From Acidobacteriota bacterium (GTDB taxonomy: Bacteria > Acidobacteriota > Blastocatellia > Chloracidobacteriales > JADJPF01): a DNA stretch of 64,000 nt. The stretch lies in the NCBI GenBank assembly GCA_016213785.1, contig JACQZQ010000025.1:62001-126000 (forward strand), in the 5' to 3' direction. Position 1 is the first letter of the stretch. Each line of letters begins with the position of its first letter. The translations under genes were made by a program, and so were the position numbers. The notes below the pieces were generated by a model. The model searched no databases. It had not been told where the DNA came from and worked only from the letters and a program-made list of their open reading frames with translations. This document shows, piece by piece, positions 12,186 to 29,148 of the stretch.

Positions 12186-13016
12186 ATGCTTAAAGTTATT
12201 TTATCTATAATTACTTTACTAGCAATAAGCTTAGAAGCTCACGCCCAAGCTAATAAAAAGCCTGAGTTTATCCGCTATGATCTAGTCAAAGGTCTACCTA
12301 ATGATAATATCAGCCCTTTGGAAGACGGCCCCCCCTTTATCCCACCTAAAAACTCTTTAGTAAAATTACAAAGACAAGTAATTATGCAGTTTTTACCATC
12401 AACCTTTACACCTTTTGTAGAACCAGAACAAGACTCTTCTAAACGTAAACTTATACGCTATGGTTTTGCCTATTATAGAGATAATGAGATTCCTGGATTT
12501 CCAGGGTTTAGAGACATTATTGTTCCACTGCGATTTGATTCTACAAAGGGCTTTCTAGATGTGACTTACTACCGTAATGTTCTGATAGTTCCTTTTACTT
12601 TTGATTTTCCTGAAAATCGCTCATCAATAGCACTTTTACCCCAAGATGAAGGAACTGCCCTACTACTTTTCTTAGAAGGAACTAGCAATAAGTTTTTACT
12701 TAGTCTATCTAATCTTTTTGATGAGCCTAAAATGGTAAATTTTTTAGCTTTTGATGAAGTTGAAGCAATTCAATCAGACGCTGAATTTGAAAAATTTATT
12801 ATTTTTACTCGCGGAGGCACTAACCGTAGTAGCTTATTTGTTTCTACTACTAGCGCATCGCTCAATCCAATTTCTCCAGGTGTAGAATTAATTAAGGATC
12901 TACCTATTAATAATGAATCTTATATATTTAAGGTTTCTCCTAATACTGAGTTAAAATTCCGAGGTGCTCCTGTGCCTCCTAAAACTACTACATCTGTTTC
13001 CCAACCAAAAGAATAA
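12186..13016 (+). CDS. Secreted protein of unknown function
   Basis: A 276-residue protein that I do not recognise. Residues 1-21 are a signal peptide ending in AHAQA. The mature part is beta-strand-rich with alternating hydrophobic residues and no cysteines, zinc motifs or membrane segments; the tail is rich in Pro, Thr and Ser. The phrase RYDLVKGLPNDNI near residue 30 resembles the first blade motif of propeller proteins such as the neighbour at 13220, but no repeats follow. A run of seven C bases at 12329-12335 encodes Gly-Pro-Pro and is exceptional in this AT-rich sequence. Two inverted repeats separate it from the propeller gene, so it may be its own transcript at the head of the exported-protein block. 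Confidence 0.75.
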   Translation: MLKVILSIITLLAISLEAHAQANKKPEFIRYDLVKGLPNDNISPLEDGPPFIPPKNSLVKLQRQVIMQFLPSTFTPFVEPEQDSSKRKLIRYGFAYYRDNEIPGFPGFRDIIVPLRFDSTKGFLDVTYYRNVLIVPFTFDFPENRSSIALLPQDEGTALLLFLEGTSNKFLLSLSNLFDEPKMVNFLAFDEVEAIQSDAEFEKFIIFTRGGTNRSSLFVSTTSASLNPISPGVELIKDLPINNESYIFKVSPNTELKFRGAPVPPKTTTSVSQPKE

Positions 13017-13031
13017 ACTGCTTTTATAATA

Positions 13032-13063
13032 TTTTGGGATAGAGTTATGTCTCTATCCCAAAA
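13032..13063 (+). terminator. Perfect inverted repeat after the 12186 gene (possible terminator)
   Basis: TTTTGGGATAGAG at 13032-13044 pairs over all 13 bases with 13051-13063 around a 6-base loop. The closing AAAA/TTTT arms give a short T stretch only inside the stem, and GGCTTCT follows, so termination may be partial. It begins 15 bases past the stop codon. Confidence 0.55.
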
Positions 13064-13069
13064 GGCTTC

Positions 13070-13083
13070 TGTGGTTAACCACA
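13070..13083. repeat. 14-bp palindrome, possible regulator site
   Basis: TGTGGTTAACCACA is a perfect palindrome 6 bases after the larger hairpin and 136 bases before the propeller gene. Its compact symmetry suits a dimeric DNA-binding protein, which could control the downstream operon. No matching regulator can be named. Confidence 0.4.
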
Positions 13084-13219
13084 ACAATAATTTGCTTATA
13101 ACCTAACCTAGCACTAGCTCTACACACATAAACAAAATACCACCATTAAAAGACAATCTTGCTACAACATTACAAGATTAGTTATCAATTAATTCATTAT
13201 AAGTAGCAATTAGTCATTT

Positions 13220-15148
13220 ATGAAAAACTGGTATAACAAAAAACCAATTATATTTTCACTGGTAATAATTTTTAGCCTAGTAATAGCTCTAAAGTTTTTT
13301 TATATACAAAAACAAACAGAGTTAGCCTTACTAAAATCTCAAACAGAGCTTTCAAAACAAAATATAATTAAACATCGCAAAGAATCTTTACCCCCACTAA
13401 ATAACCATATAAATACACTAGCAAATACCAAAGAAGTCAACACTATAGCGTTTTATCAAGGAAATTACTATATTGCAGCTAAAGCAGGACTGCTTAAGTA
13501 TTCATCCAGGGGCAAACAATTAGAAATTTTTAATAACTTAAACGGTTTACCAGAAAATGATTTAACTACTCTAACTGTTTGGAATGATAAGCTTTATATT
13601 GGAACAAATTCAAAAGGCTTATTAGTATTTGATGGAAAAGAATTTCAAAGATATTGGTGGCCTGACCTAAAAACAGAAGCTATCACAACTTTACTAAATG
13701 ATTATGGAAGATTACTTATAGGAACCTTCGCCACAGGATTACTAGAATTTGATGGAAGTAAGTTTAGAGAAATTAAAAGTAATGGACAAAAAATAAAGTC
13801 CATTACTTGGCTAGAAAAACAAGAAAATCAGCTTTTTATAGGGACATTCGATGATGGATTTTGGGTAGTAGAGCCTACTAAATCCGAGCATTTTACTACT
13901 GCTCAAGGGCTAGCATCTAACCGTATTATAGGCATAACTCAAATAAATAATCAGTTTATAGTAGCTACTGATTTTGGTCTTTCCATAGCTAGTTTAGGAG
14001 GCTTAAATGAAAAAACTACCTTTCAGACTACACTTGTTTTTCCTACTCTTTCTAGCTTTCTTAAAACAAAAAATGATTTGGTACTAGTAAAAGATTCAGG
14101 TGAAATTTTCCAGCTACCTTTAGATAAAGATATTCAAAATAAAAACCTTAGGCTTTTAACAAAAATACCCACAACTAATGCACATATCACTAAAGTAGAG
14201 AATCAACTCTACTTAGCTTCTAATAGTGGTCTTTGGAAATTAGATAACAACAAAGTAGAAAATTTTTTAGCCAATAACCCTAATAGTCTTTCAGCAAATA
14301 TGGTTTCTGCTTTAGCCATAGATAATATTGGTCAATTATGGGTAGGTTATTTTCGTAATGGAATAGATATTTTTTCAGTTAAAGGTCAAAAAATTATACA
14401 TTTAGAAAATGAATATTTACGTGAAGTTAATCATATTTTTATCCAAAAAGATAATGTGCTAGTTTCTACATCTCAAGGGTTAATAAATTTTGACAAAAAA
14501 TTAAATATTAAGCGCTTAAGTAAATCTAACGGCTTATTAAACCATAATATTAGCAGTAGTTATTTACTCCCAAACTCAGACAATCTTCTTTTAGCAACAG
14601 CTAAAGGTCTAGCAATAGGCAAAGAAAATAAATTTTCCCTGCTTACTAAAGTTCAAGGACTGCCTAGCAATAATACATACAGTATATTAGCCGATGATAA
14701 ATCTATTTATATTGCAACTCTTACAGGGCTAGCAAAATTTACTAATGGAAAAGTTGCTCGTATTTATAAAGATTCTAATTCAAGCCTTAAAGCCAATTGG
14801 ATAACAGCCTTACAGTCTGCTAATAACCAGCTTTTTATTGGCACTTATGGAGGTGGAATCTATGAACTATTGCCCACAGGAGAGCTTCATAGCTTTGTTC
14901 CAGAAATAGGCCGTCTAGTAATAAACCTTAATGCAATGTTTAGTGATAATGATCGGCTTTACGTTGGAACTTTAAGCGGATTATGGATTTATCAATTAAA
15001 CAACCAGCAATGGCAACAAATTAAATTAGAACTGCCTGAGATTAATGTATTAAGCATTACTGGAGATCAAAATAGTATTTATGTTGGTACAACAAATGGT
15101 ATTGCAAAAATAGAAAAAGAATTTTTTAACAAATTAAACAATAGATAA
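13220..15148 (+). CDS. Membrane-anchored beta-propeller protein (two-component-regulator propeller repeats)
   Basis: A 642-residue protein with an N-terminal hydrophobic anchor at about 10-27 and a short coiled stretch, then repeats of about 40 residues through the whole length. Each repeat holds a pattern like (N/D)GL-(P/S)-x-(N/D)-x(I/V)-x-x-(L/I) followed by (L/I)-(Y/F/W)-(I/V)-G-T-x-x-G-(L/I). These are the Reg_prop repeats that form the extracellular sensor propellers of hybrid kinases, but here no kinase or output domain follows, so it is a stand-alone propeller facing the periplasm. It leads a tight run with the VIT/vWA gene 28 bases downstream. No clear Shine-Dalgarno precedes the ATG. 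A ligand or scaffold role is inferred. Confidence 0.82.
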   Translation: MKNWYNKKPIIFSLVIIFSLVIALKFFYIQKQTELALLKSQTELSKQNIIKHRKESLPPLNNHINTLANTKEVNTIAFYQGNYYIAAKAGLLKYSSRGKQLEIFNNLNGLPENDLTTLTVWNDKLYIGTNSKGLLVFDGKEFQRYWWPDLKTEAITTLLNDYGRLLIGTFATGLLEFDGSKFREIKSNGQKIKSITWLEKQENQLFIGTFDDGFWVVEPTKSEHFTTAQGLASNRIIGITQINNQFIVATDFGLSIASLGGLNEKTTFQTTLVFPTLSSFLKTKNDLVLVKDSGEIFQLPLDKDIQNKNLRLLTKIPTTNAHITKVENQLYLASNSGLWKLDNNKVENFLANNPNSLSANMVSALAIDNIGQLWVGYFRNGIDIFSVKGQKIIHLENEYLREVNHIFIQKDNVLVSTSQGLINFDKKLNIKRLSKSNGLLNHNISSSYLLPNSDNLLLATAKGLAIGKENKFSLLTKVQGLPSNNTYSILADDKSIYIATLTGLAKFTNGKVARIYKDSNSSLKANWITALQSANNQLFIGTYGGGIYELLPTGELHSFVPEIGRLVINLNAMFSDNDRLYVGTLSGLWIYQLNNQQWQQIKLELPEINVLSITGDQNSIYVGTTNGIAKIEKEFFNKLNNR

Positions 15149-15176
15149 ACACAGGAACAATTGAAAAAGGTAATTT

Positions 15177-17546
15177 ATGAATCAAAGAAGGTTATATTTA
15201 ATTTTAGCAATTACATTAATTTTAGCTTGTTATTTGCCCTTTTCTGCAAGCTTTGAAAGCTTGGCTCAATCAGGGGTTTTAATACCTTCTAATAGTAATC
15301 GTCCTGATGAGAAAATTCTTTCTTTATCAATAATGAATGTAGATATACTTATAGATAATCAACATGCTCGGGTTAAAGTATTGCAAATATTTGATAATCA
15401 TCAAAGTAATATTTTAGAGGGTAAATATATTTTTGCCCTACCTACTAGTGGAACAATTTCAGACTTTGCTATTTGGGAAAATAACACACGCATTCCAGGC
15501 GTAATTATGGAAAAAAGGCGAGCAGAAGCCGTTTATGGCAGTCTTACTAATGCTAGTGTTGATCCAGGTTTACTCCAACAAGATGACGAGCGCGGTGGAA
15601 GTTCGGCATTCTCCGTAAAAGTTTTCCCTATTCCTGCTTATGGAAGTAAACGACTAGAATTAGAGTATACAGAAATCCTTCCAATAGAAGAATTAAGTAG
15701 CCATTTTTCTTTCCCTCTTAAACCCGAAGCAGGATATACACAACAAGTAGATCAGCTAAATATCCATATTTTAGTATTAAGTAATAACACTATTAGTAGT
15801 ACTAAAATCAATTCTAAAAATTATAAAATGGAGATACTTAAATCTACGGCAAATGAGTTTGAAGCCTCTTATCAAGCAAGTAACGTTAATTTAACAGAAG
15901 ATTTAGAGTTAATTTATCAACTAAACGTTCCAAACAGTCAGCTTAATTCTATTGCCTATCGTGCGCCAGAGCTTATTTCAGCTTATGATTTACGCGATCC
16001 TTCGTTAGCAAAACCTAATCCTGATGGATATTTTCAAGCTACAGCAGTATTTAATGAACAACAATCAAAAAGCTCTAATAGCAATGTTTTACTTTTGCTT
16101 GACACTTCCCTATCAATGTATGGTGATAAACTAGTTAAAGCTATAGAAGCATTAGAGTTATTTCTAAACAGCTTAAAACCACAAGAAAAATTTAATTTAA
16201 TATTATTTAATGAAGCAACTTCTGAACTATCAACAACTCCTTTACCTGCAACTAAAGAAAATATTTCTAAAGCAATTAATTTTGTAAAAGAATCAATGCT
16301 TTATGGAGGTACAGATTTAGAAAAAGGTTTAACTAAAGCTTTAGAACTAGTTAATAATTTTCCAGGAGAATCTAAGAATATAATTATTATTTCTGATGCT
16401 AATGCAACTATTGGTAATATCCAAAAATCATCAATACTAGATGCATTTAACAAAAATAATAAAGGTGAAATTCAAGCAAGATTATTTGCGCTAGGTTTAG
16501 GAAATGATGCAGCTAATAATCTGTTAGATCAATTAGTTAAAGATTGTAATGGCTATTCTATTTCTGCTAGAGAAACAGAAGATATTAATTTTTCAGTGCA
16601 AAGAATTATAGATAAAGTCCATAAACCCAATATTAATAGCTTAAGTGCTGATTATGACAATAATTTTTATCAAGTTTACTCTATTAATGATAAAAATATT
16701 TTTGACCAAGGAAGCTATACTTTTGTAGGGCGTTATAGAAAACCACAACTGCAAGCAACACTTACTTTAGAAGGTTTTTTTGGCAATCGTCCAATAAATT
16801 TATCAACAGATCTATTGTTACCTGAGTTTGATGATCTGCACTCACATTTACCTAGGCTTTGGGCAAGGGCACGAGTTGATGCACTACTTAGAGAAATGGA
16901 TATTGAAGGCGAGCGAGAGGATTATATAGCAGAAATAATTAGACTTGCTCAAAAATATAAATTTGTTACACCTTATACCTCTTTTATAGCTGCTCCTAGA
17001 GCCTTATTGCGTCCTCGTCTAATTCAACCTGGAGATCCTGTAATTAGGGTTAAAACAGATGAATCAATTAAGCAAGTTTTTGTTGTACTCCCATTTGGTG
17101 AAACGCTTCCATTAACTTACTTAGCCGAAGAAAAAATTTGGGAAGTACGTTTTTTTGCTCCTGCAAGCCTTCCTGATGGTGTTTATAAATGTCGATTGCT
17201 TATGACAGATAAACAAGGCCAAGGATTTCAAGAAGAAAAAAGTTTTGTAATTGATAGTAATGCTCCAAAACTACAAGTAAAACTTGCCTCAACTACTCTG
17301 CACGCAGGCGATGAGCTAAATATTAAAGCTAGCGCAGATAAAGACACTATAAGACTAATAGCTAAACTCTATGGTTTATCTCCTGTTAATTTACACTGGT
17401 CAGCAAAAGAGCAAACTAATATAGGTAAAATGCTTATTCCAAATGACTTGCCTGCTGGAAATTATACTTTAAGCGTTATAGCTGAAGATGGTGCTTATAA
17501 CCAATCCAGCCAAGAAATAAATTTAACAATCTTACCAAAATACTAA
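15177..17546 (+). CDS. VIT and von Willebrand factor A domain protein, exported
   Basis: A 789-residue protein. The N-terminus is a signal sequence; LILAC at residues 14-18 could be a lipoprotein box, although cleavage after ASFESLAQ is also possible. A VIT domain (about 45-175) is followed by a linker and a vWA domain opening with LLLLDTSLSMYGDK, whose D309, S311 and S313 form a complete metal-ion-dependent adhesion site. A beta-rich C-terminal region (about 620-789) contains two Ig-like segments. The architecture matches bacterial relatives of inter-alpha-trypsin-inhibitor heavy chains, which bind protein partners through Mg-dependent vWA contacts. AAAGG lies 6 bases before ATG. It sits between the propeller gene and the giant TPR gene, 28 and 31 bases away, so it is probably part of one envelope complex (inference). 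Confidence 0.9.
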   Translation: MNQRRLYLILAITLILACYLPFSASFESLAQSGVLIPSNSNRPDEKILSLSIMNVDILIDNQHARVKVLQIFDNHQSNILEGKYIFALPTSGTISDFAIWENNTRIPGVIMEKRRAEAVYGSLTNASVDPGLLQQDDERGGSSAFSVKVFPIPAYGSKRLELEYTEILPIEELSSHFSFPLKPEAGYTQQVDQLNIHILVLSNNTISSTKINSKNYKMEILKSTANEFEASYQASNVNLTEDLELIYQLNVPNSQLNSIAYRAPELISAYDLRDPSLAKPNPDGYFQATAVFNEQQSKSSNSNVLLLLDTSLSMYGDKLVKAIEALELFLNSLKPQEKFNLILFNEATSELSTTPLPATKENISKAINFVKESMLYGGTDLEKGLTKALELVNNFPGESKNIIIISDANATIGNIQKSSILDAFNKNNKGEIQARLFALGLGNDAANNLLDQLVKDCNGYSISARETEDINFSVQRIIDKVHKPNINSLSADYDNNFYQVYSINDKNIFDQGSYTFVGRYRKPQLQATLTLEGFFGNRPINLSTDLLLPEFDDLHSHLPRLWARARVDALLREMDIEGEREDYIAEIIRLAQKYKFVTPYTSFIAAPRALLRPRLIQPGDPVIRVKTDESIKQVFVVLPFGETLPLTYLAEEKIWEVRFFAPASLPDGVYKCRLLMTDKQGQGFQEEKSFVIDSNAPKLQVKLASTTLHAGDELNIKASADKDTIRLIAKLYGLSPVNLHWSAKEQTNIGKMLIPNDLPAGNYTLSVIAEDGAYNQSSQEINLTILPKY

Positions 17547-17577
17547 AAACATTTTCAAAATATTAAAGGGAAAGATT

Positions 17578-20500
17578 ATGAATACTAATAAAAAAAGATA
17601 CTTATTAACGATGGGATTAATATTAGCTATAAGTATTCCAGCAGATAAAATAATTAAGTCAAATGTATCTGCTAGTAGGAGTGATAATGATACTGACAGC
17701 AACTTAATTTCAAATATTGAAAAATTTGATACTAGCCAAAGTGAAGTATCTAAAAGAATAGAATTAGCACTTTACAAAGAAACAGAATTTTTTAGTACAA
17801 GCACACTAGTCCCTTACCCTACAGCCTCAGCAAGAAATCAATTATTAGAAATAGCCAAACATTACCCTAACAATATTGATATTTATAAAAAACTTGCTGA
17901 ACTTGAAATAGAGTTAAGTAATAAAGATCAAGCTGAAAAATATTTATTAAAGTCTGTAGATTTATCTAAAAATAATAAAGCATCATTAAGAGAATTAGCT
18001 AGTTTTTATGAGAAGCAAGCAAGGTTTGAAAAACAAGCTGATACATTAAGTAGAATACTAGAAGTAACCGAAAATCAAGAGCAAGGAGAGATTTTAACAG
18101 AACTTATTTCTCTTGCCGATAAACACTCACTTGATAAATATTTAGGTGCTCAGTTTTATCAAAAAATTCTTAATCGTTATCCTGATAATTTAATAATTTT
18201 AGAGCAATATATAGAAACATTAATTGAAAATAAAGACTATCAAAAAGCATTAAAACTAGTAAATGATTACCGTCAAAATACTCCTGATAGTGATTATTAT
18301 TTTCTTAATAAACAAGCTGATATTTTACTGAAAATAAATAAATGGCAAGAGGCTAAAGAGCTTTATATTAAAGTATTTGATCCATTTTGGCCTGATTATG
18401 TTAATCAAAAATTTTATTATGAAGTTTTATCTGATAATAATCAATTACGTGCTTATGGTCGTGATTTACGTAGAGAGTTTGAGAAAACTCCAAGCAATTT
18501 TGATCTAGCTATATGCTTAATTCATTATGATACACAAAATTCAAGCTATGATTATGATAGCTCAAATAATCTTAATCAGTATGTTTTCTACAAATTAGAA
18601 GAAGCTCGTAGCAAAAATAATATAGGATGGCAAGCTAAAGAGTTAAATATTTTAGCTCGTATTTCTCTACAAAAAGGCCAAGCTGAGCGAGCATCTCGTT
18701 ATATCTACACTCTCTATAATCAAGGCGAGTTAAAACCAACTAGCGAGTTAAGAGGTCAATTACTTTATCAACTCTTTGAACTACTTATGGATGCTCAGTA
18801 TCAAAGGCTTCCATTAACTACAGGAAACTTAAACTTTTACCAAGACATTGCTAGGACTGACACTAATCCTGGAGTAATAGGCGGAATTCTTTCTTTAATT
18901 TTTTCTGATACAAAACCTAAAAATGAGTTTTCAGACGCGCAAACTAGTGCAATCAAATATTTTAATCAAGCCGCAGCACATCGCATTTTTCACAGTTATA
19001 AAAAAGAATATCCTACATCACCTCAACTTGCCCAAATGTACTTAGATATAATTAAGCTCTATATTCAAGAAAATAATACGGAACTTGCAAATGAAACATT
19101 AAAAGAATTTGAAGAGCGTTATAAAGAATCAAATAAATTTGCTGATGTGGCAATAAAATTAGCTGATGCCTATATAATAAATAATGATTATGAAAAAGAA
19201 CTTGCTGTGTATCAACAGATTTTGGATTATTTAGGTAAAAAAACAAACTCTGGTCAACCTTTACAAGAGGCTAAAAATAAACTCCCAAGGAAACATTTTG
19301 CTAATAGTGATGATGATTATGGTAGTGATGAAGGAGAAAGTAATAAAACCATAGAGGCTCCATTGCTTGAACCAACCAATTCTGTTCCTACAACCTCTTT
19401 TCAAGAGTTTAACACTGACCTTAAAATTAATCAGCCCTCTACTACTAATGAAAATTATTACTACAATTATGATTCGCCTAGATTTAATGATTATTTAGCT
19501 GAGAATCAAAGTGTAAGTTATGAGCTTGTATTAAACCGTTATATTTTTAAGCTAAATAAAAACAATCGCACCAAAGAAATAATCGAGTTATTTAATAGAG
19601 AAATTAAAAAATATCCTAAAGAAGAAGCTCTTTATGAACAGCTATTACAATGGCTTGGGCAAACTAATTTAGTAAATGACCAATTAGCAGTTTATCAAAA
19701 AGCTATTAAACAGTTTCCTACTACTAACTGGTATGATCGTCTAGCAAGGTGGTTAATAAGACAAAAACGTGATCAAGAATTTGCTGATTATTCTAAAGAA
19801 CTCTTAAGCAAATTTGATGAAGTGCAAGTAACAGACTATTTAAATCAGTTTGTAACAAGCTATAGCTATAGTGATTTTGATAAAAAACTTTATTTATCGC
19901 TCTATAGTTATGCTCACAACCGTTTTCCTCAAAACCATGATTTTGTTCAAGGATTACTTCGCTACTATATCCATCATAATCAATTAGATAAGTGGCAAGC
20001 TTTAGTAGGAAGATATTATTTTATTTGGCCTGAAATTAGAAATGATTATTTGACTTTTTTATCTCAAAAAAAAGAGTTAAGAAAATATTTAGCTACTGCA
20101 AAAAATAAATTAATTAACTCTTCTGAAAATACTAACCTATTGCCATATAAATTATTTAGAGCAGACGCAGCAATTTGGTTATGTAGCTATGAAGAAGCAA
20201 TAGACGCTTATAGAGAGCTAAACCGCCTCTATCCAGGAAATAGCGTTTTTGCCCAGCAGCTAGTTAATTTATCTCGTTCATTTGGTCAACTCCAACCTAA
20301 ATTTCTAACAGAAGCAACAAATGTTCAATTTAAGCAAGTTTCTCTTAATCCCGGTTCAGTAGATGATCGTGTAAGAGCAGGCGAACTCTATGCAGAAGCA
20401 AATGACTATCAAAAAGCTAAAGTTGAGTGGCTAAAGCTTTTAGAGCTTGGTAAAGACAAACAAACTTATTTAGACACAGCTACAATATTTTGGGACTACT

Positions 20501-23500
20501 ATCAATATGATGACGCGCTTAAAGTAATAGAAAAATTTCGCCAAGAAAAAAATGATAAAACCCTACTTGCTTTTGAAACAGGAGCAATTCTAGAAGCTAA
20601 ACACCAAATAAAAGCAGCTATTAGAGAATATGTTAAAGGTCTTAATAAAAATGAGGAGGATTATTATAAAGTAAAAGAACGTTTAGCTGTTTTATATGAA
20701 CGTGATGAAGCCTTATCTAAAGAAATCCAAAGAGCTTTTTCTTCTTATTATCCTCAAACCAAATCACCAGAAAAATTTATTTTAGGCTATGTTGAAGTGC
20801 TAAAAATAGTAAACCAAGAGGAAAAGGCGAGCAGTCTATTAAAACAAGCTATTAAAGAAACCAAATCCATTGAGTTTCTTGAACAAGCTGGAGAATTTTT
20901 CCAAGAACAAAAAGATGCTAAAAGTGAAATTAGAACTATAGAACTACGCCTTAAATATATTAATTCATTTCGTGAAGATATTGCTTATCGTTTGCGTTTA
21001 ATCTCAGTTTATCGCCAAAATAATGATAAGCAAAAAGCTATAAAACTATTACAAGAATTATTAAATAAATATCCTTCTAATTATGGAGTAATCAATGAAA
21101 TAGTTAATATCTATTGGAATATGGGATTAACTAAAAATGCTGTTGCTACCTTAGATCAAGCAGTTCTAAGGAGTCGTGGAAAATACTACTATGAATTTTC
21201 ACGTCGTTTAGCAGCAAGACATCTTAATTTAAATAATACTAAAATAGCCCAAAATATTTTAGAAAACCTTTTTAATAAAGATAGGCTTAACTCACAGGTG
21301 TTAGATGAATTAGCTAATCTTTATATTCGCACAAATAACCGTAAAGCACTTGAAGAATGCTTAAAAGAAGGGCTTAAAGCAGTAGAATCCCAATATATGG
21401 ATCCAACAGAATTACGTAGCTCAATAGCATATTTTCGCCAAGATATGATTGAAAAATTTACATCAATTAAAGACTACAATGCTGCAATTAGACAGCATAT
21501 TGAAATTATTAATCGCAATCCAGATGATGAGGAAAAATTAGATCAAGCTATTCTTTATACAGAAAGATATGGTGGAGGAGATGAATTAGCAAATTATTAT
21601 AAAGGAGTTTTTCAACAAGCTTATAAAAACTATCGTTGGGCTGTTGTCTTAGCACGTATTTATCAAGCTAAAGATGATTTAGATAGCACAATTAAATATT
21701 ATTTAGCTGCAATTGATAATCAACCTGAAAAAGCTGAACTCTATAGTGCTTTAGCTCAAATTTACAAAGAAAAACAAGACTTACCTTCTGCTATTAATGT
21801 GATGAATAAAGCAGTTGAACTCTCAAACTATGAGGTAACTTATGTTAGGGAAGCTATACGATTTTTAGAAGAAGCAGGTCGTAATAATGAAGTAGTCACA
21901 TTAAAAGCTAAACTTCCCCCTGAACCTAGTAAAATAGAAGAACAAACACTTAGTACAACAAATAACCAAACTCAAGATCCTTTTGCTTTAGCTAAAGATT
22001 CAAGATCAGGAAATAAAGAAGCTATTAATAAATATAGAAAAGCTTTTCAAGCTTTTTATGAAAATCCTTATAACTCTTTAGATGTCAATAGTTATAGTTT
22101 AGAAAATTATGCTGAAGCAGTTCATAAAGAAGACTCATTAACAAAAATTCTAGAAAGTTTTTGGACTCTAAGAGATAAGCTATTAAAAGAAGCGACTACT
22201 GAAAATAGCTATAACTCAGCTAGAGCAAGAGAGCTTTTACAGATGCTAGATGGGGCTTTACCTAAAATTATTAGTGATATTGTGCAAATGTATAGCACAG
22301 GAGAAGAACTTATAGAATTTCATAAAGATTTAGCTAAACGAATAGAAACATTTTCGGGAAAATCTGATCCTAATAAAACGTTGTTTTTACTTGAAAACAT
22401 TGTGCTTGCAGCAAATTTCCTTGATCTTCGAGAAAATATAATAAATAAAAGATTTATAAAAGACAATCAAGAGAGTTTAGATACCTTAGTCTATTTCTAT
22501 GAAAGCCAAGGGAATTATCAAAAAGCTTTAGAGATTCTTGAACGAGAATATGATTCTACTAAAAAAACTCACTATTTATATCAAATTGCTAGATTTAGTG
22601 CTTTAGTTGGTGATTTTACAAAAGAACGCCAAACATTTTTTCAATACTATGAAAAACATAATCCTGGGTCAATTCAACCTAATGATTCTGTTATAGATTA
22701 CTATCTTAATTTACTTTATAAAGATAGAGCTAAAGGAAGAGAAGAACTTTTACAATTAACAAAAACCCCTTCTCTTTATCGAATACAACTAATTAACTTT
22801 TTAATATCTAAAAATGAAGTAGATTTAGCTCGTAAAGCTATTTCTAACTCTAATTTATTAAGTTTATGGAAAAATAGTCGTAACGCTGAATTAAGCGTTA
22901 AATTAGCTGACTATAACCCGCTAAATAATCAATATTTTGAGAATATTTTAAGGTTTCAAAATATTGGGCAAATGATTAAATCAAAACCTAAAGCATCAGA
23001 ACAACTAATAAGTGATGATTGGTTTGAAATGGCTGCTAACTATGGTCGATGGCTTTATAAAACACCTAATATAAATAAAGATCTATTAGCAAACAGATTT
23101 TTACCCGCTATGCTGGAAAGAAGACCTCAAGACCCATCTGAGCAACAAAAATTAGGTGAGTGGTATTTAGCACAAAAACAACTCGATAAAGCTTTAGCCC
23201 ATTTACTAAATGCTCAAACAATGGGAATAGACTCGGCAGAACTCCTATCAAGTATTGGTTCAACTTATTTTCTTAAAGGCAATAAAGATAAAGCTTTAGA
23301 TTATTGGCTAAAAGTTTTTGAAAAAAATGATGCAACTAGTGACAAACTTTGGGTTGATACATTAAAAAACTATGGTCTAGTAGATAAAGCAAGAGAAGAG
23401 CTATTAAAACGTTTAATCAAAAATAAGCACTTGTTAAGCGATGAAAACATAGAAAGTTATATTTCTTTATTTGAAAGCTCATTTAAGGAAAATGACAAGT

Positions 23501-25275
23501 TAAGCCAAAACCAAGCTAAAGCTCAAGCAGAGTTTTTTATTAATTTATGTAAAACTTGGCCTAAAGATACTTTTATAGCTCAAAGGCTAATAGAAAAATA
23601 TATAATTTCTGCTGAAAATATTGCTCCTTTTTATCAAATATTGATTGAGCGTAGTAAGGATGTTGATAGCTATGATTATGAGTACCGTAATTATGCACAG
23701 CTATCTAAAAATATTAGACTTCTAGAAGAAAAACTTGATCATACCAATAATTTTCAAAGCAAGGAACCAACTAATGATCGCTACAAATGGCAAGGCCAAT
23801 ATTTACAGATTCTACTATCTCAAAATAAAGACAAAACTGCACTTGAGCTTATTAAAGAAATAGAAAAATCTCTCTCAGGTCGATATATGCGACCAGAATG
23901 GCTAAGACTTGCAAATATTGAACTAATGTTACGCTTAGGTAATCTTGAAGAAGCAAGAAAAGAATTAATACATTTTGTAAAAATCCAAACCTACCCAGAA
24001 ACTACAAATGTCACTCTTCCCAATCTAGGGCGTTTAGAAACAGTATTAAGGCTTTTAGAAAAAACTAATTTTAGTAAAGAAAAAGACCCTCTCTTACAAG
24101 CTTATTATGAACGCCTTTTAGCTTTAGAACAGTGCAGTCTAGTTAATTTATCAGGATTTACAGATGTAGTTTATCGCAGTGGTAATATTGAATTAGGTAA
24201 TAACTTACTACAACTTATCTTAGAATTTGGAGAAGTACAAGACCAAGCTAAAGCAGCAAAAAAACTGGCTAATCTTCCTAATATTAAGGCTCGTTCTATC
24301 ACAGCAAGAAATATTGTAACCCCTTCTCCAACTTATGAAGAAGTCTATAACTCTATCTCAACAAATCATGTACAAACCGTAGCAGAACTAGCAACAAAAT
24401 ATATGCAATACAATCTAGCAATAGAACAACGAAAACGCCTTAAGCGAATGTATGGATATGATGAAGTTAACCGTATAGAACTAGCTAGACTCCTAGCAGC
24501 TAATAATCAGGCAAAAGAAGCAGTTATTGAGTTAACTTCTATGATTATTGACCAAACTCTTACACGCTCAACTCGTTGGCAAATTATGTCGCTAATATCA
24601 AATATGGCTAGTAAAGAACCTGAACTATGGAAAATAACAGAAAAAGTCACTGATAAAGAATTTAAGCTAGCTCTTGAGGCAAACCGTTTAGCAAATTTAG
24701 GCGAGATAAAATCAGCCATTAAATTAATTAATAAAGAGTTTAATAGTGTAGAAATAAGGTTCCTTCTAGCAACTCTAGAGCGTAGAAATAACAATGCTAA
24801 AGCTGCAATAGAGATCTTAAATCAAATCCCTATGGAGTATAGACCCTTTGATAGAACGAATGAAACCTCACCATTAAGACAACTGATTTATCTTTACTCA
24901 GCAATTAATTCGCCAAAAGCAGTGCTTGCATTAATAGAAAAAGACTATCAAATACAGTCTCTCTTAAATAGTAGAGGTTCTTTACCAAAGAAAGATTACT
25001 CTGATAAAACTCAACAATTACAGCTATTAAAAGTACTTGAACAAGAACAAGAATATAAAACAACACTTGATTTAATAGCTCTATCAGCTAATGCAGCAGA
25101 AACATTAGAAAATTTTGACTTAGCAGTAAAACTATTAGAAATACTTAAAAATAGTTCTAGCTTTCAAGCACAAGCTAAAATAGAGACACGAATAAATAAA
25201 CTAGAAGAAAAACGAAAACCACAAAGTAAAAACAATACTCTGTGGCAAATAAATATCAGTCTAATTTCAAGATAG
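17578..25275 (+). CDS. Giant tetratricopeptide-repeat protein (2565 residues), exported or membrane-anchored
   Basis: The N-terminus has a basic patch and a hydrophobic segment at about 6-22, consistent with a signal peptide or anchor. Nearly all the rest is helical TPR-type repeats, recognisable by recurring patterns such as L-x-x-L-A-x-x-Y and Y-x-x-A-(L/I)-x-x-(Y/L). They are divergent and are interrupted by an acidic Asn/Tyr/Ser-rich linker at about 576-644 and a second disordered segment near 1450-1480. No enzymatic motif was found. Lys, Asn and Glu are very common, partly reflecting AT-rich codons. AAAGGG precedes the ATG by 8 bases. It is by far the longest gene in the window and sits centrally in the cluster, so a scaffold role for the VIT/vWA and propeller proteins is plausible but inferred. 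Confidence 0.85.
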   Translation: MNTNKKRYLLTMGLILAISIPADKIIKSNVSASRSDNDTDSNLISNIEKFDTSQSEVSKRIELALYKETEFFSTSTLVPYPTASARNQLLEIAKHYPNNIDIYKKLAELEIELSNKDQAEKYLLKSVDLSKNNKASLRELASFYEKQARFEKQADTLSRILEVTENQEQGEILTELISLADKHSLDKYLGAQFYQKILNRYPDNLIILEQYIETLIENKDYQKALKLVNDYRQNTPDSDYYFLNKQADILLKINKWQEAKELYIKVFDPFWPDYVNQKFYYEVLSDNNQLRAYGRDLRREFEKTPSNFDLAICLIHYDTQNSSYDYDSSNNLNQYVFYKLEEARSKNNIGWQAKELNILARISLQKGQAERASRYIYTLYNQGELKPTSELRGQLLYQLFELLMDAQYQRLPLTTGNLNFYQDIARTDTNPGVIGGILSLIFSDTKPKNEFSDAQTSAIKYFNQAAAHRIFHSYKKEYPTSPQLAQMYLDIIKLYIQENNTELANETLKEFEERYKESNKFADVAIKLADAYIINNDYEKELAVYQQILDYLGKKTNSGQPLQEAKNKLPRKHFANSDDDYGSDEGESNKTIEAPLLEPTNSVPTTSFQEFNTDLKINQPSTTNENYYYNYDSPRFNDYLAENQSVSYELVLNRYIFKLNKNNRTKEIIELFNREIKKYPKEEALYEQLLQWLGQTNLVNDQLAVYQKAIKQFPTTNWYDRLARWLIRQKRDQEFADYSKELLSKFDEVQVTDYLNQFVTSYSYSDFDKKLYLSLYSYAHNRFPQNHDFVQGLLRYYIHHNQLDKWQALVGRYYFIWPEIRNDYLTFLSQKKELRKYLATAKNKLINSSENTNLLPYKLFRADAAIWLCSYEEAIDAYRELNRLYPGNSVFAQQLVNLSRSFGQLQPKFLTEATNVQFKQVSLNPGSVDDRVRAGELYAEANDYQKAKVEWLKLLELGKDKQTYLDTATIFWDYYQYDDALKVIEKFRQEKNDKTLLAFETGAILEAKHQIKAAIREYVKGLNKNEEDYYKVKERLAVLYERDEALSKEIQRAFSSYYPQTKSPEKFILGYVEVLKIVNQEEKASSLLKQAIKETKSIEFLEQAGEFFQEQKDAKSEIRTIELRLKYINSFREDIAYRLRLISVYRQNNDKQKAIKLLQELLNKYPSNYGVINEIVNIYWNMGLTKNAVATLDQAVLRSRGKYYYEFSRRLAARHLNLNNTKIAQNILENLFNKDRLNSQVLDELANLYIRTNNRKALEECLKEGLKAVESQYMDPTELRSSIAYFRQDMIEKFTSIKDYNAAIRQHIEIINRNPDDEEKLDQAILYTERYGGGDELANYYKGVFQQAYKNYRWAVVLARIYQAKDDLDSTIKYYLAAIDNQPEKAELYSALAQIYKEKQDLPSAINVMNKAVELSNYEVTYVREAIRFLEEAGRNNEVVTLKAKLPPEPSKIEEQTLSTTNNQTQDPFALAKDSRSGNKEAINKYRKAFQAFYENPYNSLDVNSYSLENYAEAVHKEDSLTKILESFWTLRDKLLKEATTENSYNSARARELLQMLDGALPKIISDIVQMYSTGEELIEFHKDLAKRIETFSGKSDPNKTLFLLENIVLAANFLDLRENIINKRFIKDNQESLDTLVYFYESQGNYQKALEILEREYDSTKKTHYLYQIARFSALVGDFTKERQTFFQYYEKHNPGSIQPNDSVIDYYLNLLYKDRAKGREELLQLTKTPSLYRIQLINFLISKNEVDLARKAISNSNLLSLWKNSRNAELSVKLADYNPLNNQYFENILRFQNIGQMIKSKPKASEQLISDDWFEMAANYGRWLYKTPNINKDLLANRFLPAMLERRPQDPSEQQKLGEWYLAQKQLDKALAHLLNAQTMGIDSAELLSSIGSTYFLKGNKDKALDYWLKVFEKNDATSDKLWVDTLKNYGLVDKAREELLKRLIKNKHLLSDENIESYISLFESSFKENDKLSQNQAKAQAEFFINLCKTWPKDTFIAQRLIEKYIISAENIAPFYQILIERSKDVDSYDYEYRNYAQLSKNIRLLEEKLDHTNNFQSKEPTNDRYKWQGQYLQILLSQNKDKTALELIKEIEKSLSGRYMRPEWLRLANIELMLRLGNLEEARKELIHFVKIQTYPETTNVTLPNLGRLETVLRLLEKTNFSKEKDPLLQAYYERLLALEQCSLVNLSGFTDVVYRSGNIELGNNLLQLILEFGEVQDQAKAAKKLANLPNIKARSITARNIVTPSPTYEEVYNSISTNHVQTVAELATKYMQYNLAIEQRKRLKRMYGYDEVNRIELARLLAANNQAKEAVIELTSMIIDQTLTRSTRWQIMSLISNMASKEPELWKITEKVTDKEFKLALEANRLANLGEIKSAIKLINKEFNSVEIRFLLATLERRNNNAKAAIEILNQIPMEYRPFDRTNETSPLRQLIYLYSAINSPKAVLALIEKDYQIQSLLNSRGSLPKKDYSDKTQQLQLLKVLEQEQEYKTTLDLIALSANAAETLENFDLAVKLLEILKNSSSFQAQAKIETRINKLEEKRKPQSKNNTLWQINISLISR

Positions 25276-25310
25276 TTTAACCTTATAGATGTTTAACAGG
25301 AAGGTGATTT

Positions 25311-26276
25311 ATGAAATTATGGAGATTACTTTATTCTCGATTACTTGCTTTTTCTCTTAGCTTTTCATTTGGACTAGTACTAGTAATTTTAATAGCTAAC
25401 CTTTTAACAAGCTTAAGTACTCCAACTAGTGTACCTGTTATAAAGAAAATGCCTAGAGAGCAAGAAGCTAAAGAGCAGCAAATGGCTATTAAAACCTATC
25501 CTAGCCCAGAATATGTTATTAGTTTAATTACTCATAATGAGCCAGCTATAAGACGTGCTATTTACAAAGAAATTTTTTTAAGACCTAATAAAGATAGCAT
25601 CTATTATGACTACTTAAGAGACTTAGACTTTCCTGAACGTGCTGATAATGTAAAGCTAGACTATGTAAAACTAGACAAAGAACATTCTAGGGCAGCTATT
25701 ATTAAATTCCTTCACTTAGCAAACCCTACAATAATTGTTATGCAAAAAGTAGAAGAAAATCAGTGGATAGTCTTAGATATTTTAAGTACAAGAGAAAAAT
25801 TTTATAGCGATGAAGATTGGGCATACACTGTATCTTTAGTAGAACCTGGTATTTATGAAATACTTATTAATCAAGCTACAAGCGATACAACTAGTTATGA
25901 AAGCCAATTTATAATCTTTAAGCTAATTAATAATAAGCTAGTTAAAGTTGGAGTATTACTGCAAACAAAATTTATAGCAACACCATCTCAAAAACTTGAT
26001 AAAGACTGGCTTAATAAAGCTGAAATACTTGAGCGTTATCAAAGCCACTTACAAATAGCCTATAGCCCTAAACCTACCCTTAAAATTGATACTTATAAAA
26101 GCATAGTTAAACTAACAGGCTTAAAAGAGACAAAGCGCTGGTCTGATATTGATTTATGTTGGCATATAAGTGAGCTTGCACCACATAATCGACGATATGA
26201 AACGCTTAATTTTATAAGTTACAGCCAAAGTTTTTTAGTATGGGATAGTCAATTACAACGTTTTGTAACAAAATAG
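25311..26276 (+). CDS. Membrane-anchored protein of unknown function
   Basis: A 321-residue protein that I do not recognise. One strong hydrophobic helix at about 14-36 predicts an N-in anchor with the rest outside the cytoplasm. The outer part is mixed alpha/beta with no cysteines in motif and no catalytic pattern; it contains two regions that read like beta-sheet domains (about 105-200 and 205-320). AAGG lies 6 bases before ATG. It is 35 bases after the giant TPR gene and 8 bases before the next gene, so it almost certainly shares their transcript. Confidence 0.75.
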   Translation: MKLWRLLYSRLLAFSLSFSFGLVLVILIANLLTSLSTPTSVPVIKKMPREQEAKEQQMAIKTYPSPEYVISLITHNEPAIRRAIYKEIFLRPNKDSIYYDYLRDLDFPERADNVKLDYVKLDKEHSRAAIIKFLHLANPTIIVMQKVEENQWIVLDILSTREKFYSDEDWAYTVSLVEPGIYEILINQATSDTTSYESQFIIFKLINNKLVKVGVLLQTKFIATPSQKLDKDWLNKAEILERYQSHLQIAYSPKPTLKIDTYKSIVKLTGLKETKRWSDIDLCWHISELAPHNRRYETLNFISYSQSFLVWDSQLQRFVTK

Positions 26277-26284
26277 AGGTTTTT

Positions 26285-28126
26285 ATGAAAAAGCTACGAA
26301 ATTTATTAATATTTGCTTTTATAACTATTGTCCTTGCACTTATTATTAAAGCCCAGTCTGCAAATGATACCAGACCATTAGCAGCAGATTTTCCACGTGG
26401 AGCACTTGTGTTTGCTCAAGTTAATGACCTTCCTAAAATGCTACAAAGCTGGAATGAATCTAAGCTAAAAGAGCAATATTTATCTAGCAATAACTATGAG
26501 CAATTTCTTAATAGACATCTAGCAACAAAACTTATAGAACGGGTAAATGAGTTTGGCGTTGCACTAGGGTTTGATTTTAATGATCGCTTCTTTCAAGAGC
26601 TTAGTAATCAACAATCTGCAATTGCCCTTTATGATATTGGCCGAATAGAGTTTGTTTTTATTGCACCTTTAGATAAAGAAAAATATTTACTCTCTCAACT
26701 TGTAACATTAGAAAGCGAACTTGAAGAAATAGAATTAAAACCAGGTGTTAGTTACTTTGCTAAAACTCTTGAAGTTGATAGAGGCCGACAAAAACAGCTT
26801 CTTACATTTGCTCTACTAGATGGTAAATTTATCCTAGCTAATAATGAACAACTAATGATTCGTACATTAAATAATGTTACAGCTAAAGTTAATTCTCAAA
26901 CAACCGATAGGTTAAATGCAGATCCAAATTATCAAGCATTAATTAAAAAAATTAAGCCACATTATGCAACTATTTGGGTTGCACAAGAAAAACTAAATCA
27001 AGATTGGTATTTTCGTAACTATTGGATAATGAATAATATAACTGATTTAAGAAATATTCGTGCAGCAATTTTTGATATTGAATTACAAGATAAAGAATGG
27101 CGAGAAGAGCGCTATTTTTTAACTAAATCTAACCTTACTACAAATCAAATATCTGCTCTAGAAACACAAAATCTTTATAAACTAGTACCTCAAAATCTAC
27201 CTTACTTTAAGATAGAAGCTATTACTAGTGCTGAGCAAATATCTAAACTAATCCATAACTATATGTTTGATAATGATATAGAACCCAAAAAAGGCGATAA
27301 CTCCCGCTCTAATTATAGGTCTTATTATGTAAATACAGATGATACTTATGAATCCTATTATGATAGTTATTATTTATATGGCTCTAATTATGAAAAAGAA
27401 ATTAACGACCCAATAGATGCAGATGATTTAGAAGTCACCCCAGAAAATAGCTACTACAATCGTCAAACTGCTTTAGATAATCTCAGAGAAATATTTAGCA
27501 CTAGCCAAGCAAAAGCTCTTGTTAAAATGCAAAAACCTAAAGCAATAGAAGGAGCTTTATTTGCGGAATTTCATAAAGCGTTTGTTATAAATTTAGCAAA
27601 TCCAACTCAATTTGATAGCTTAGCTTTTGAAAAAGCAATTGCTAGACTTGCTGCTGATAGTACTATGATTGCTGGAAATAGCGCCTCGCTATCCTGGAAA
27701 GATAGCCAAGATAAACGCTCTAGAGTGTTAGTTATGCCTATGTTAGGCTGGCAATTATCCTATACATTAAAAAATAATAACTTAATTTTTAGTAATAACT
27801 CTAGTTTGTTAAAAGAAATATCAAGTAATATTGCTAAGGCTAAAAAGCACTCTGCTATTACTTCTAAAGCTTTAACCAATTTAACAGTAATTAATTTCTC
27901 AAATCGTGAGCAAACATTTGATAACATTTTTAATAAAATACAAAGTAGCTCTATAAATAGCTATCGTCAGACACATGCTAATGGCGAGACTCAAGATTTT
28001 TTTGTAAACAACATAGCAAGCCTATTAGATACTATATCTGCTGTAGAAACAATTACAATTACAAGAGACTCTAGCTCAAATTACTTACATGAGCTTATTT
28101 GTCTTAAATTAAGAGATGATAACTAA
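26285..28126 (+). CDS. Exported protein of unknown function with Tyr/Asn-rich insert
   Basis: A 613-residue protein with an N-terminal signal or anchor (about 5-22). The region 30-330 has alternating strands and helices with phrases such as LPKMLQSWNESKLKEQY and ALYDIGRIEFVFIAPL that recall the large DUF3352-type family of bacterial envelope proteins; this resemblance is from memory and tentative. Residues about 336-381 are a low-complexity insert crowded with Tyr, Asn, Ser and Asp. The C-terminal part (about 395-613) repeats the same strand-rich style. It is the last gene of the run; the convergent copZ-like gene ends 6 bases away with no hairpin between. Confidence 0.78.
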   Translation: MKKLRNLLIFAFITIVLALIIKAQSANDTRPLAADFPRGALVFAQVNDLPKMLQSWNESKLKEQYLSSNNYEQFLNRHLATKLIERVNEFGVALGFDFNDRFFQELSNQQSAIALYDIGRIEFVFIAPLDKEKYLLSQLVTLESELEEIELKPGVSYFAKTLEVDRGRQKQLLTFALLDGKFILANNEQLMIRTLNNVTAKVNSQTTDRLNADPNYQALIKKIKPHYATIWVAQEKLNQDWYFRNYWIMNNITDLRNIRAAIFDIELQDKEWREERYFLTKSNLTTNQISALETQNLYKLVPQNLPYFKIEAITSAEQISKLIHNYMFDNDIEPKKGDNSRSNYRSYYVNTDDTYESYYDSYYLYGSNYEKEINDPIDADDLEVTPENSYYNRQTALDNLREIFSTSQAKALVKMQKPKAIEGALFAEFHKAFVINLANPTQFDSLAFEKAIARLAADSTMIAGNSASLSWKDSQDKRSRVLVMPMLGWQLSYTLKNNNLIFSNNSSLLKEISSNIAKAKKHSAITSKALTNLTVINFSNREQTFDNIFNKIQSSSINSYRQTHANGETQDFFVNNIASLLDTISAVETITITRDSSSNYLHELICLKLRDDN

Positions 28127-28132
28127 GAGATT

Positions 28133-28345
28133 TTAATTTTTTAATTGAGCTTGGTATCCAAGCTCAATAACTTTATCTATAAGGGTTTGCAGGTTAATTT
28201 GCTGATCATTATGCTCTATAGAAGCACTAGCATTGGCTAAATCAACAGAAATAGTTTTTACTCCCTCAATATCACTTAATTCGCTTTCTATCAGCTTTTT
28301 ACAAGCCTGACAATGCATTCCTGTAATGGATAAATTAGTTAACAT
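28133..28345 (-). CDS. Heavy-metal-associated (HMA) domain protein, copper-chaperone-like
   Basis: A 70-residue ferredoxin-like HMA domain. GMHCQAC at 9-15 supplies the metal-binding pair C12 and C15, and the length is that of CopZ-type chaperones. Such proteins carry Cu(I), sometimes other soft metals, to P-type ATPases, but no such ATPase gene lies in the window. AGGGG lies 7 bases before ATG. Its start is 14 bases after the rhomboid stop, so both are on one transcript. The metal is not determined by sequence alone. Confidence 0.9.
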   Translation of the reverse strand: MLTNLSITGMHCQACKKLIESELSDIEGVKTISVDLANASASIEHNDQQINLQTLIDKVIELGYQAQLKN

Positions 28346-28359
28346 AGTAACCCCTAGAA

Positions 28360-29148
28360 TTAGTTTATATAATCTTTTTTGTTATCCTTATTTATTTTTT
28401 CTTCCAAATCATCCCACATTTTTTTTACGTCTTTATCGACAACTTTAAAATTTTTATATTTTCTACGTATTTTCCATAGTCTAATTTGTTCATTAGCCCA
28501 AGCCTTAACAGCGCCTAGCATATGCCAGTTTGCTCTAGCGTAAATTATACCTAAGAGTACACCAGAAATATGTATAGCATGAGCAATCCCTGGGTCTCCT
28601 TCTGCACCAATAGTGCCTAAAAAAGCAGGAATAATTAAAAGAAATAAGACAAAGTATTTCATCTTTATAGGAAAGATCATTAATATAATTTGCCGATCAG
28701 GATAAATAGCAGCATAAGCACCTATTACGCCATAAACTGCGCCTGATGCACCTATGGAAGATACTGGAGAGTGAATATTAAGTAGATATTGGAAAAAAGC
28801 AGATAAAACGCCTATAGCAAGATAAAATATTAGAAAAGTCTTTTTGCCCCAACGCCATTCTAAGTCAGGCCCAAAAAAGAAAAGCCCTAACATATTAAAG
28901 AGTAGGTGCATAAATCCTCCATGTAAAAACATAGAGGTAAAGAATTGCCAGAAGAAAAATTGACTTGTGATAAGTGCAGGAGTCAAACCAAAAATAGTGT
29001 TAAACCATTTTATATTTCCAGAAAGAGTCATAATTATCTGAATGACATAAACTAAAGCATTGATAATTATAAGAGATCTTACTATGCTAGTTTTAGAAAA
29101 AACTGACATAGGATCGTAAGGGTTTTGATAATACATTCTATCGCCCAT
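28360..29148 (-). CDS. Rhomboid-family intramembrane serine protease
   Basis: A 262-residue protein with six membrane segments. The nucleophile is S135 in GASGAVYG, and the second catalytic residue is most likely H193 in AIHISG on the last segment; the HGGFMHLLFNML element on the second segment is also typical. The C-terminal 45 residues are a charged cytoplasmic tail. Rhomboids cut transmembrane substrates within the membrane; the substrate here is unknown. A strong GGAGG lies about 5 bases before ATG. It heads a two-gene unit with the HMA protein and is divergent from the secreted protein at 29326. Confidence 0.93.
   Translation of the reverse strand: MGDRMYYQNPYDPMSVFSKTSIVRSLIIINALVYVIQIIMTLSGNIKWFNTIFGLTPALITSQFFFWQFFTSMFLHGGFMHLLFNMLGLFFFGPDLEWRWGKKTFLIFYLAIGVLSAFFQYLLNIHSPVSSIGASGAVYGVIGAYAAIYPDRQIILMIFPIKMKYFVLFLLIIPAFLGTIGAEGDPGIAHAIHISGVLLGIIYARANWHMLGAVKAWANEQIRLWKIRRKYKNFKVVDKDVKKMWDDLEEKINKDNKKDYIN

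Follow-up and report, generated by a model that had tools for sequence, protein, structure and literature searches.

A conserved four-gene unit for exported proteins in Acidobacteriota, with a possible Mag-like role at the peptidoglycan

Introduction

A 64,000-nucleotide stretch of Acidobacteriota DNA (the window) carries five closely spaced genes, g1 to g5, whose products include a beta-propeller, a VIT/vWA protein and a giant TPR protein. Which of these genes belong together, and what could their products do in the cell envelope? A first-pass annotation had read all five as one complex, knew of no described system with this set, and proposed outer-surface adhesion, envelope sensing or assembly as roles. 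A description of this operon was likewise not found in the literature searched here.

Layout of the gene cluster

The five genes occupy positions 13220–28126 on the plus strand, with spacers of 28, 31, 35 and 8 nt (Table 1); ORF calls and Pfam matches bear out both the layout and the domains first assigned. Each protein has exactly one hydrophobic segment, at the N-terminus, and none elsewhere, which marks all five as exported and gives g1 and g4 the look of anchored proteins, in line with the earlier claim. Few members of the protein families have a lipobox-like motif. The hairpin behind g5 is the only plus-strand terminator-like site within positions 12900–28500 and probably marks the end of the transcription unit. 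A search for structured RNA across the cluster region yielded none. A role in anti-phage defence was dropped, as none of the five proteins matched a PADLOC model. On the minus strand, the window also encodes an 831-residue secreted protein with the zinc-metalloprotease motif HEVGHALG and no confident Pfam match (9466–11961), and a rhomboid protease whose gene is convergent with the cluster (28360–29148).

Table 1. Features of the cluster in the window.
Feature	Position	Strand	Product or description	Place in the unit
g1	13220..15148	+	642 aa; N-terminally anchored, very likely two beta-propellers	Core gene 1; heads the conserved order
g2	15177..17546	+	789 aa; VIT and vWA with full MIDAS, C-terminal Ig-like region, signal peptide	Core gene 2
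g3	17578..25275	+	2565 aa; exported giant TPR protein	Core gene 3
g4	25311..26276	+	321 aa; membrane-anchored, beta-rich	Accessory, between g3 and g5
g5	26285..28126	+	613 aa; exported, bilobed, TP0453-like fold (predicted)	Core gene 4
Terminator-like hairpin	28144..28168	+	18 nt past the g5 stop codon; consensus match only	

Domain composition of the five proteins

The g1 protein matched PF21544 (PorZ_N; 40.4 bits against a cut-off of 27) and PF07494 (Reg_prop), consistent with the stand-alone, sensor-type beta-propeller first proposed. It shares its repeat type with PorZ and the Reg_prop sensors; unlike these, it stands alone, with neither a kinase nor a T9SS C-terminal domain match, and a Pfam scan of g1 found no such C-terminal domain. 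The family profile matched the propeller domains of Bacteroides hybrid two-component sensors (3v9f/4a2l) at E 3e-43, compared with 5.6e-6 for PorZ, which places g1 nearer to the sensor ectodomains. These periplasmic propellers are the nearest PDB relatives of g1, and they point to envelope sensing or signalling, in which the propeller would sense a ligand or the state of the envelope and the TPR and vWA proteins would relay this to a sensor kinase. At eight Pyrinomonadaceae-type loci (L071:16434-19001, L077:17070-19499, L072:2-1612 and five more) a related gene precedes g1; the single one scanned encodes a Reg_prop histidine kinase that may regulate the operon. Most loci, however, have no kinase, regulator or transducer in the unit, and the enzymes that go with the operon in relatives belong to the peptidoglycan type (see below); we therefore regard signalling as improbable.

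In g2, Pfam recognized VIT (4.9e-18), VWA_3 (1.5e-16) and an Ig-like region. The first-pass claim of an intact MIDAS holds: D309, S311, S313, T379 and D407 are all present and are invariant across 14 homologues. The order of a VIT domain followed by a vWA domain with a DxSxS/T/D MIDAS is that of the inter-alpha-trypsin inhibitor heavy chains, which the family profile matched over residues 37–609 (E 6e-56); the resemblance to ITIH1/ITIH4 covers the VIT and vWA domains and the region after them. Against TIGR03788 (bacterial VIT-vWA proteins) g2 scored 174 bits, where the cut-off is 552, and it does not belong to that sortase-target family. No other VIT/vWA protein is known to us from such a gene context.

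The coordinates of g3 and its matches to many Pfam TPR models agree with the earlier description of a 2565-residue TPR protein. Homologues at the equivalent position have about 2,150–2,670 residues (2156–2667). TPR repeats are shared with PrsT-, MamA- and GltE-type proteins, and membership of XrtA/PEP-CTERM PrsT, MamA, GltE or sortase-target families was dropped, as the scores lay far under the curated cut-offs, in keeping with ordinary repeat similarity. At two loci (L079:5145-12261 and L074:5115-12617) g3 is split over two ORFs by a frameshift or an assembly error.

Neither g4 nor g5 had a Pfam or NCBIfam match above cut-off, which upholds their description as proteins of no known family. 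The model of g4 was beta-rich and of low confidence (pLDDT 70), with no confident match in the PDB (TM under 0.25); homologues occur in five relatives, always in the slot between g3 and g5. A Pfam scan of 33 g5 members gave no recurrent family match, and assignment of g5 to any Pfam family was dropped for this reason. An AlphaFold2 model of g5 from 33 sequences (pLDDT 81.4) had as its top match TP0453 of Treponema pallidum (Foldseek E 4.5e-4; VIA Z 12.0, with 221 residues of the 613-residue model aligned at an rmsd of 5.1), an outer-membrane-associated periplasmic lipoprotein. The similarity would be one of fold only: identity is 8%, g5 has no lipobox, and its 613 residues compare with about 250 in the solved chain. 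Single-lobe Mog1/PsbP-like proteins came next (e.g. the PknH ectodomain, Z 9.4) and others lower, which suggests that the model of g5 comprises two such lobes; this says nothing firm on function.

The PorZ_N match of g1 above the Pfam cut-off and the resemblance of g5 to TP0453 could both be read as signs of a machine for secretion, outer-membrane assembly or surface attachment, along the lines of the T9SS attachment complex (PorZ) or of gliding/adhesion complexes; in addition, vWA-MIDAS proteins are often adhesins. Such a machine seems no likelier than a signalling system, given that g1 fits the sensor propellers far better than PorZ, that a sorting or C-terminal domain was not found and that lipobox-like motifs are so infrequent in the families. 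The outer-surface adhesion first proposed finds no support: a sorting domain and a surface anchor were not found, and the genes linked in relatives encode peptidoglycan-type enzymes. Assembly or envelope sensing is a possible role.

Conservation of gene order

Gene order was surveyed by ORF calling and profile labelling in 104 distinct (deduplicated) loci. The order g1-g2-g3-(g4)-g5 on one strand was present at 58 of the 104, many of the remaining loci stopping at a contig or locus edge. Among the 58, 48 have g1-g2-g3-g5, six have g4 as well, three have a broken g3 and one is cut at the end. This recurrence is far beyond chance, and the recurrent unit consists of the four genes g1, g2, g3 and g5, with g4 as an accessory at six loci. 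The median gaps were −4 nt between g1 and g2 (n=84), −17 nt between g2 and g3 (n=84) and −4 nt between g3 and g5 (n=60), indicating that translation is often coupled.

The four-gene order spans at least two classes of Acidobacteriota, its loci bearing such names as Blastocatellia, Pyrinomonadaceae, Bryobacterales, Acidobacteriaceae, Ca. Angelobacter and Ca. Sulfotelmatobacter. Its presence is patchy: 45 of the 147 genomes of the class have g5, and 28 of the 396 genomes of the phylum have g2 at the strict cut of E <= 1e-150, with two candidates scored per genome. Across the 396 phylum genomes, those with g2 and those with a clear g5 form nearly identical sets. The best 80 of 268 g2 relatives all apparently come from Acidobacteriota. 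Two loci (L162 and L173) are in records titled Actinomycetota and Acidimicrobiia, but their genes look like those of Acidobacteriota (one scaffold bears the name WN_Acidobacteria), and the records are probably mislabelled bins. L173 and L174 both have a g1-g2 pair; at L173 it is followed by PriA and an OPT transporter in place of g3 and g5, and the genes of L174 match these in size.

Copy number through duplication and break-up of the operon

The window genome (G000; 6.4 Mb) contains a second set of g2-g3-g5 homologues on another contig (L003 on C103), spaced 4 and 3 nt apart and lacking g4, and a second g1 on a separate contig (C52). Identity of the L003 copies to those in the window is 46% for g2, 28% for g3 (over ~2400 aa; L003:6711-14420) and 25% for g5. 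Two each of g1, g2, g3 and g5 are present in G000, G006 and G011, which have one window-like set and a second set that is partly or wholly dispersed; G004 and G013 have a single clustered set. In the g2 tree the window-like and L003-like types are sisters (clade support 1.0 and 0.99) and lie apart from the proteins of the other classes, and the duplication is thus old. Five Chloracidobacterium-like genomes (G016, G021, G026, G034 and G039) have exactly one each of g1, g2, g3 and g5 at four separate places, which lie more than 170 kb apart in three two-contig assemblies. In dispersed genomes a GAF-SpoIIE phosphatase gene stands directly before g5 (L095:11897-13738 and L097:5401-7203), a new pairing after the break-up.

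Regular separation of the homologues had been named in the first-pass annotation as evidence against a single complex; the genes are scattered in one lineage only, and one-to-one numbers persist there. The pairwise divergences of g1, g2 and g5 are also correlated (rho 0.90 over 60 loci, against at most 0.20 for shuffles), to which common descent contributes part. The best sign that the four proteins act jointly is that their genes stay equal in number through both duplication and break-up, and such one-to-one retention is stronger evidence than synteny. The genes g1, g2, g3 and g5 almost certainly constitute a functional unit. They could be co-inherited envelope genes that have regulation in common and whose products form no single complex: one lineage has dispersed the operon and kept every gene, and the case for a complex is a comparative one. 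Against this, the one-to-one numbers after break-up and duplication, with both paralogous sets complete, favour a stoichiometric partnership, and we consider mere co-inheritance the least probable of the alternatives weighed here.

Peptidoglycan-type neighbours and YfaQ

A gene for a small exported acyltransferase of the PBP fold directly follows g5 at about 30 loci, mostly overlapping at −4 or −13 nt, and most loci outside Blastocatellia carry it. Its motifs SxxK (S88-K91), SxN (S136-C-N138) and KTG (K235-T-G237) are invariant in 13 sequences, and the profile matched PBP2/FtsI structures in the PDB, down to E 1e-12. A SpoIID-type gene was found at ten loci in all, at several of them after the PBP-like gene; at L129 both genes lie 3' of a very distantly related g5. 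Neither neighbour is present at the window cluster or at nearly all Blastocatellia clusters, the sole exception being L101, where a SpoIID-type gene stands immediately 3' of g5. A PBP partner of the cluster in the window genome was also sought and dropped, since only generic PBPs matched, the best of them at the level of an ordinary PBP. Away from the operon, Blastocatellia proteins of ~900 residues (L230, L231, L232, L233 and L234) open with a PBP-like domain of the same type, and a protein of ~260-300 residues is encoded upstream of several.

These two neighbours, in operons of the Terriglobia type, resemble the halves of a single E. coli protein, YfaQ, which is annotated as a tandem DUF2300 protein and is encoded within the alpha2-macroglobulin operon. 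YfaQ holds a PBP-like part at about 14–133 and a SpoIID-like part at about 271–400 (Pfam SpoIID, 7e-6), the same order as in the operons. When the 1,537 locus ORFs were searched with a two-sequence YfaQ profile, the top 14 were all PBP-like or SpoIID-type (best E 7e-9). In hhalign comparisons with YfaQ the SpoIID-type half gave E 2.3e-8, and the match of the PBP-like half alone was weak (E 4.6e-5, probability 68%). The DUF2300 HMM gave no match above cut-off on the relatives' genes. Of the single complex of five first proposed, one envelope functional unit is retained; the five are not equal members, as g4 is an accessory and other classes add the two peptidoglycan-type enzymes. P. aeruginosa has MagE, which we take to be the counterpart of YfaQ.

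Comparison with the Mag/Yfa system

The type II alpha2-macroglobulin system (P. aeruginosa magABCDEF, E. coli yfaA-T-S-Q-P) is an exported multi-protein operon, as is the cluster described here, and the two appear to have the YfaQ module in common, split in the relatives' operons into co-linear PBP-like and SpoIID-like genes. However, Mag/Yfa lacks the core of propeller, VIT/vWA protein, giant TPR protein and g5, and the standard operon here has no detectable equivalent of the macroglobulin, DUF2138, DUF1175 and DUF2135 of Mag/Yfa. An A2M profile matched nothing in g1–g5 or in the neighbours of the standard operon, its only matches being neighbours at L193, L157 and L093. Profiles of YfaT (DUF1175) and YfaP (DUF2135) gave no convincing match among the 1,537 locus ORFs. 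DUF2138 (YfaA/MagA) was not found at the operon in the Pfam scan of 33 g5 members, a search of 10 genomes or a profile-profile comparison with YfaA; identity of g5 with this family, which is exported and of comparable size, was unsupported by Pfam, HMMER and hhalign. An A2M-family gene at L193:3967-9969 is separated by 22 nt from g2, which lies downstream of it; L193 also has a g1 homologue on the other strand, and a g3-g5 pair (L117) is located elsewhere on seemingly the same contig; at L093:10773-16313 an A2M-family gene lies next to or near g2.

The Mag complex sits at the inner membrane (PMC5764988), and the mag operon is reported to give protection from T6SS effectors that target peptidoglycan (PMC12663445). 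The operons of other classes run on into matches to both halves of YfaQ, so the complex probably works like Mag; our best reading, by analogy, is of a periplasmic system that would guard or remodel peptidoglycan, resemble Mag in its working and yet not be a member of it.

Proposed function

In the mechanism that we propose, the giant TPR protein g3 would be the scaffold and g2 a partner that binds protein in a metal-dependent way through its MIDAS. At the inner membrane, g1 with its anchored double propeller would be a module for sensing or docking; g5 may be a bilobed subunit that contacts the membrane or a partner, and g4 a lineage-specific anchored accessory. Together they would guard or repair the wall at the inner membrane, the VIT/vWA and TPR proteins replacing the macroglobulin. 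That g1, g2, g3 and g5 encode the core of one periplasmic Acidobacteriota complex acting on or protecting peptidoglycan, in a Mag-like manner, we judge to be a little short of an even prospect. The peptidoglycan-related role, carried over from the relatives, is evenly balanced, and Mag-like protection in particular is rather doubtful. Equally tentative is a wider reading, in which the genes would belong to an undescribed, phylum-level Acidobacteriota envelope machine made up of the double propeller, the ITIH-like VIT/vWA protein, the TPR scaffold of some 2,500 residues and the bilobed subunit. In its full form this machine would be equipped with a peptidoglycan acyltransferase and a SpoIID enzyme of its own, and would take on the guarding of the wall for which Proteobacteria use an alpha2-macroglobulin.

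The one-to-one occurrence of the four genes through duplication and break-up is strong comparative evidence of an obligate partnership. YfaQ/MagE (DUF2300), explained as a fused pair of PBP-like and SpoIID-like proteins, would make the biochemistry of Mag/Yfa directly testable. Under the proposed role g5 would belong to a new protein family, and a gene set that occurs across a large and poorly studied soil phylum would gain its first function.
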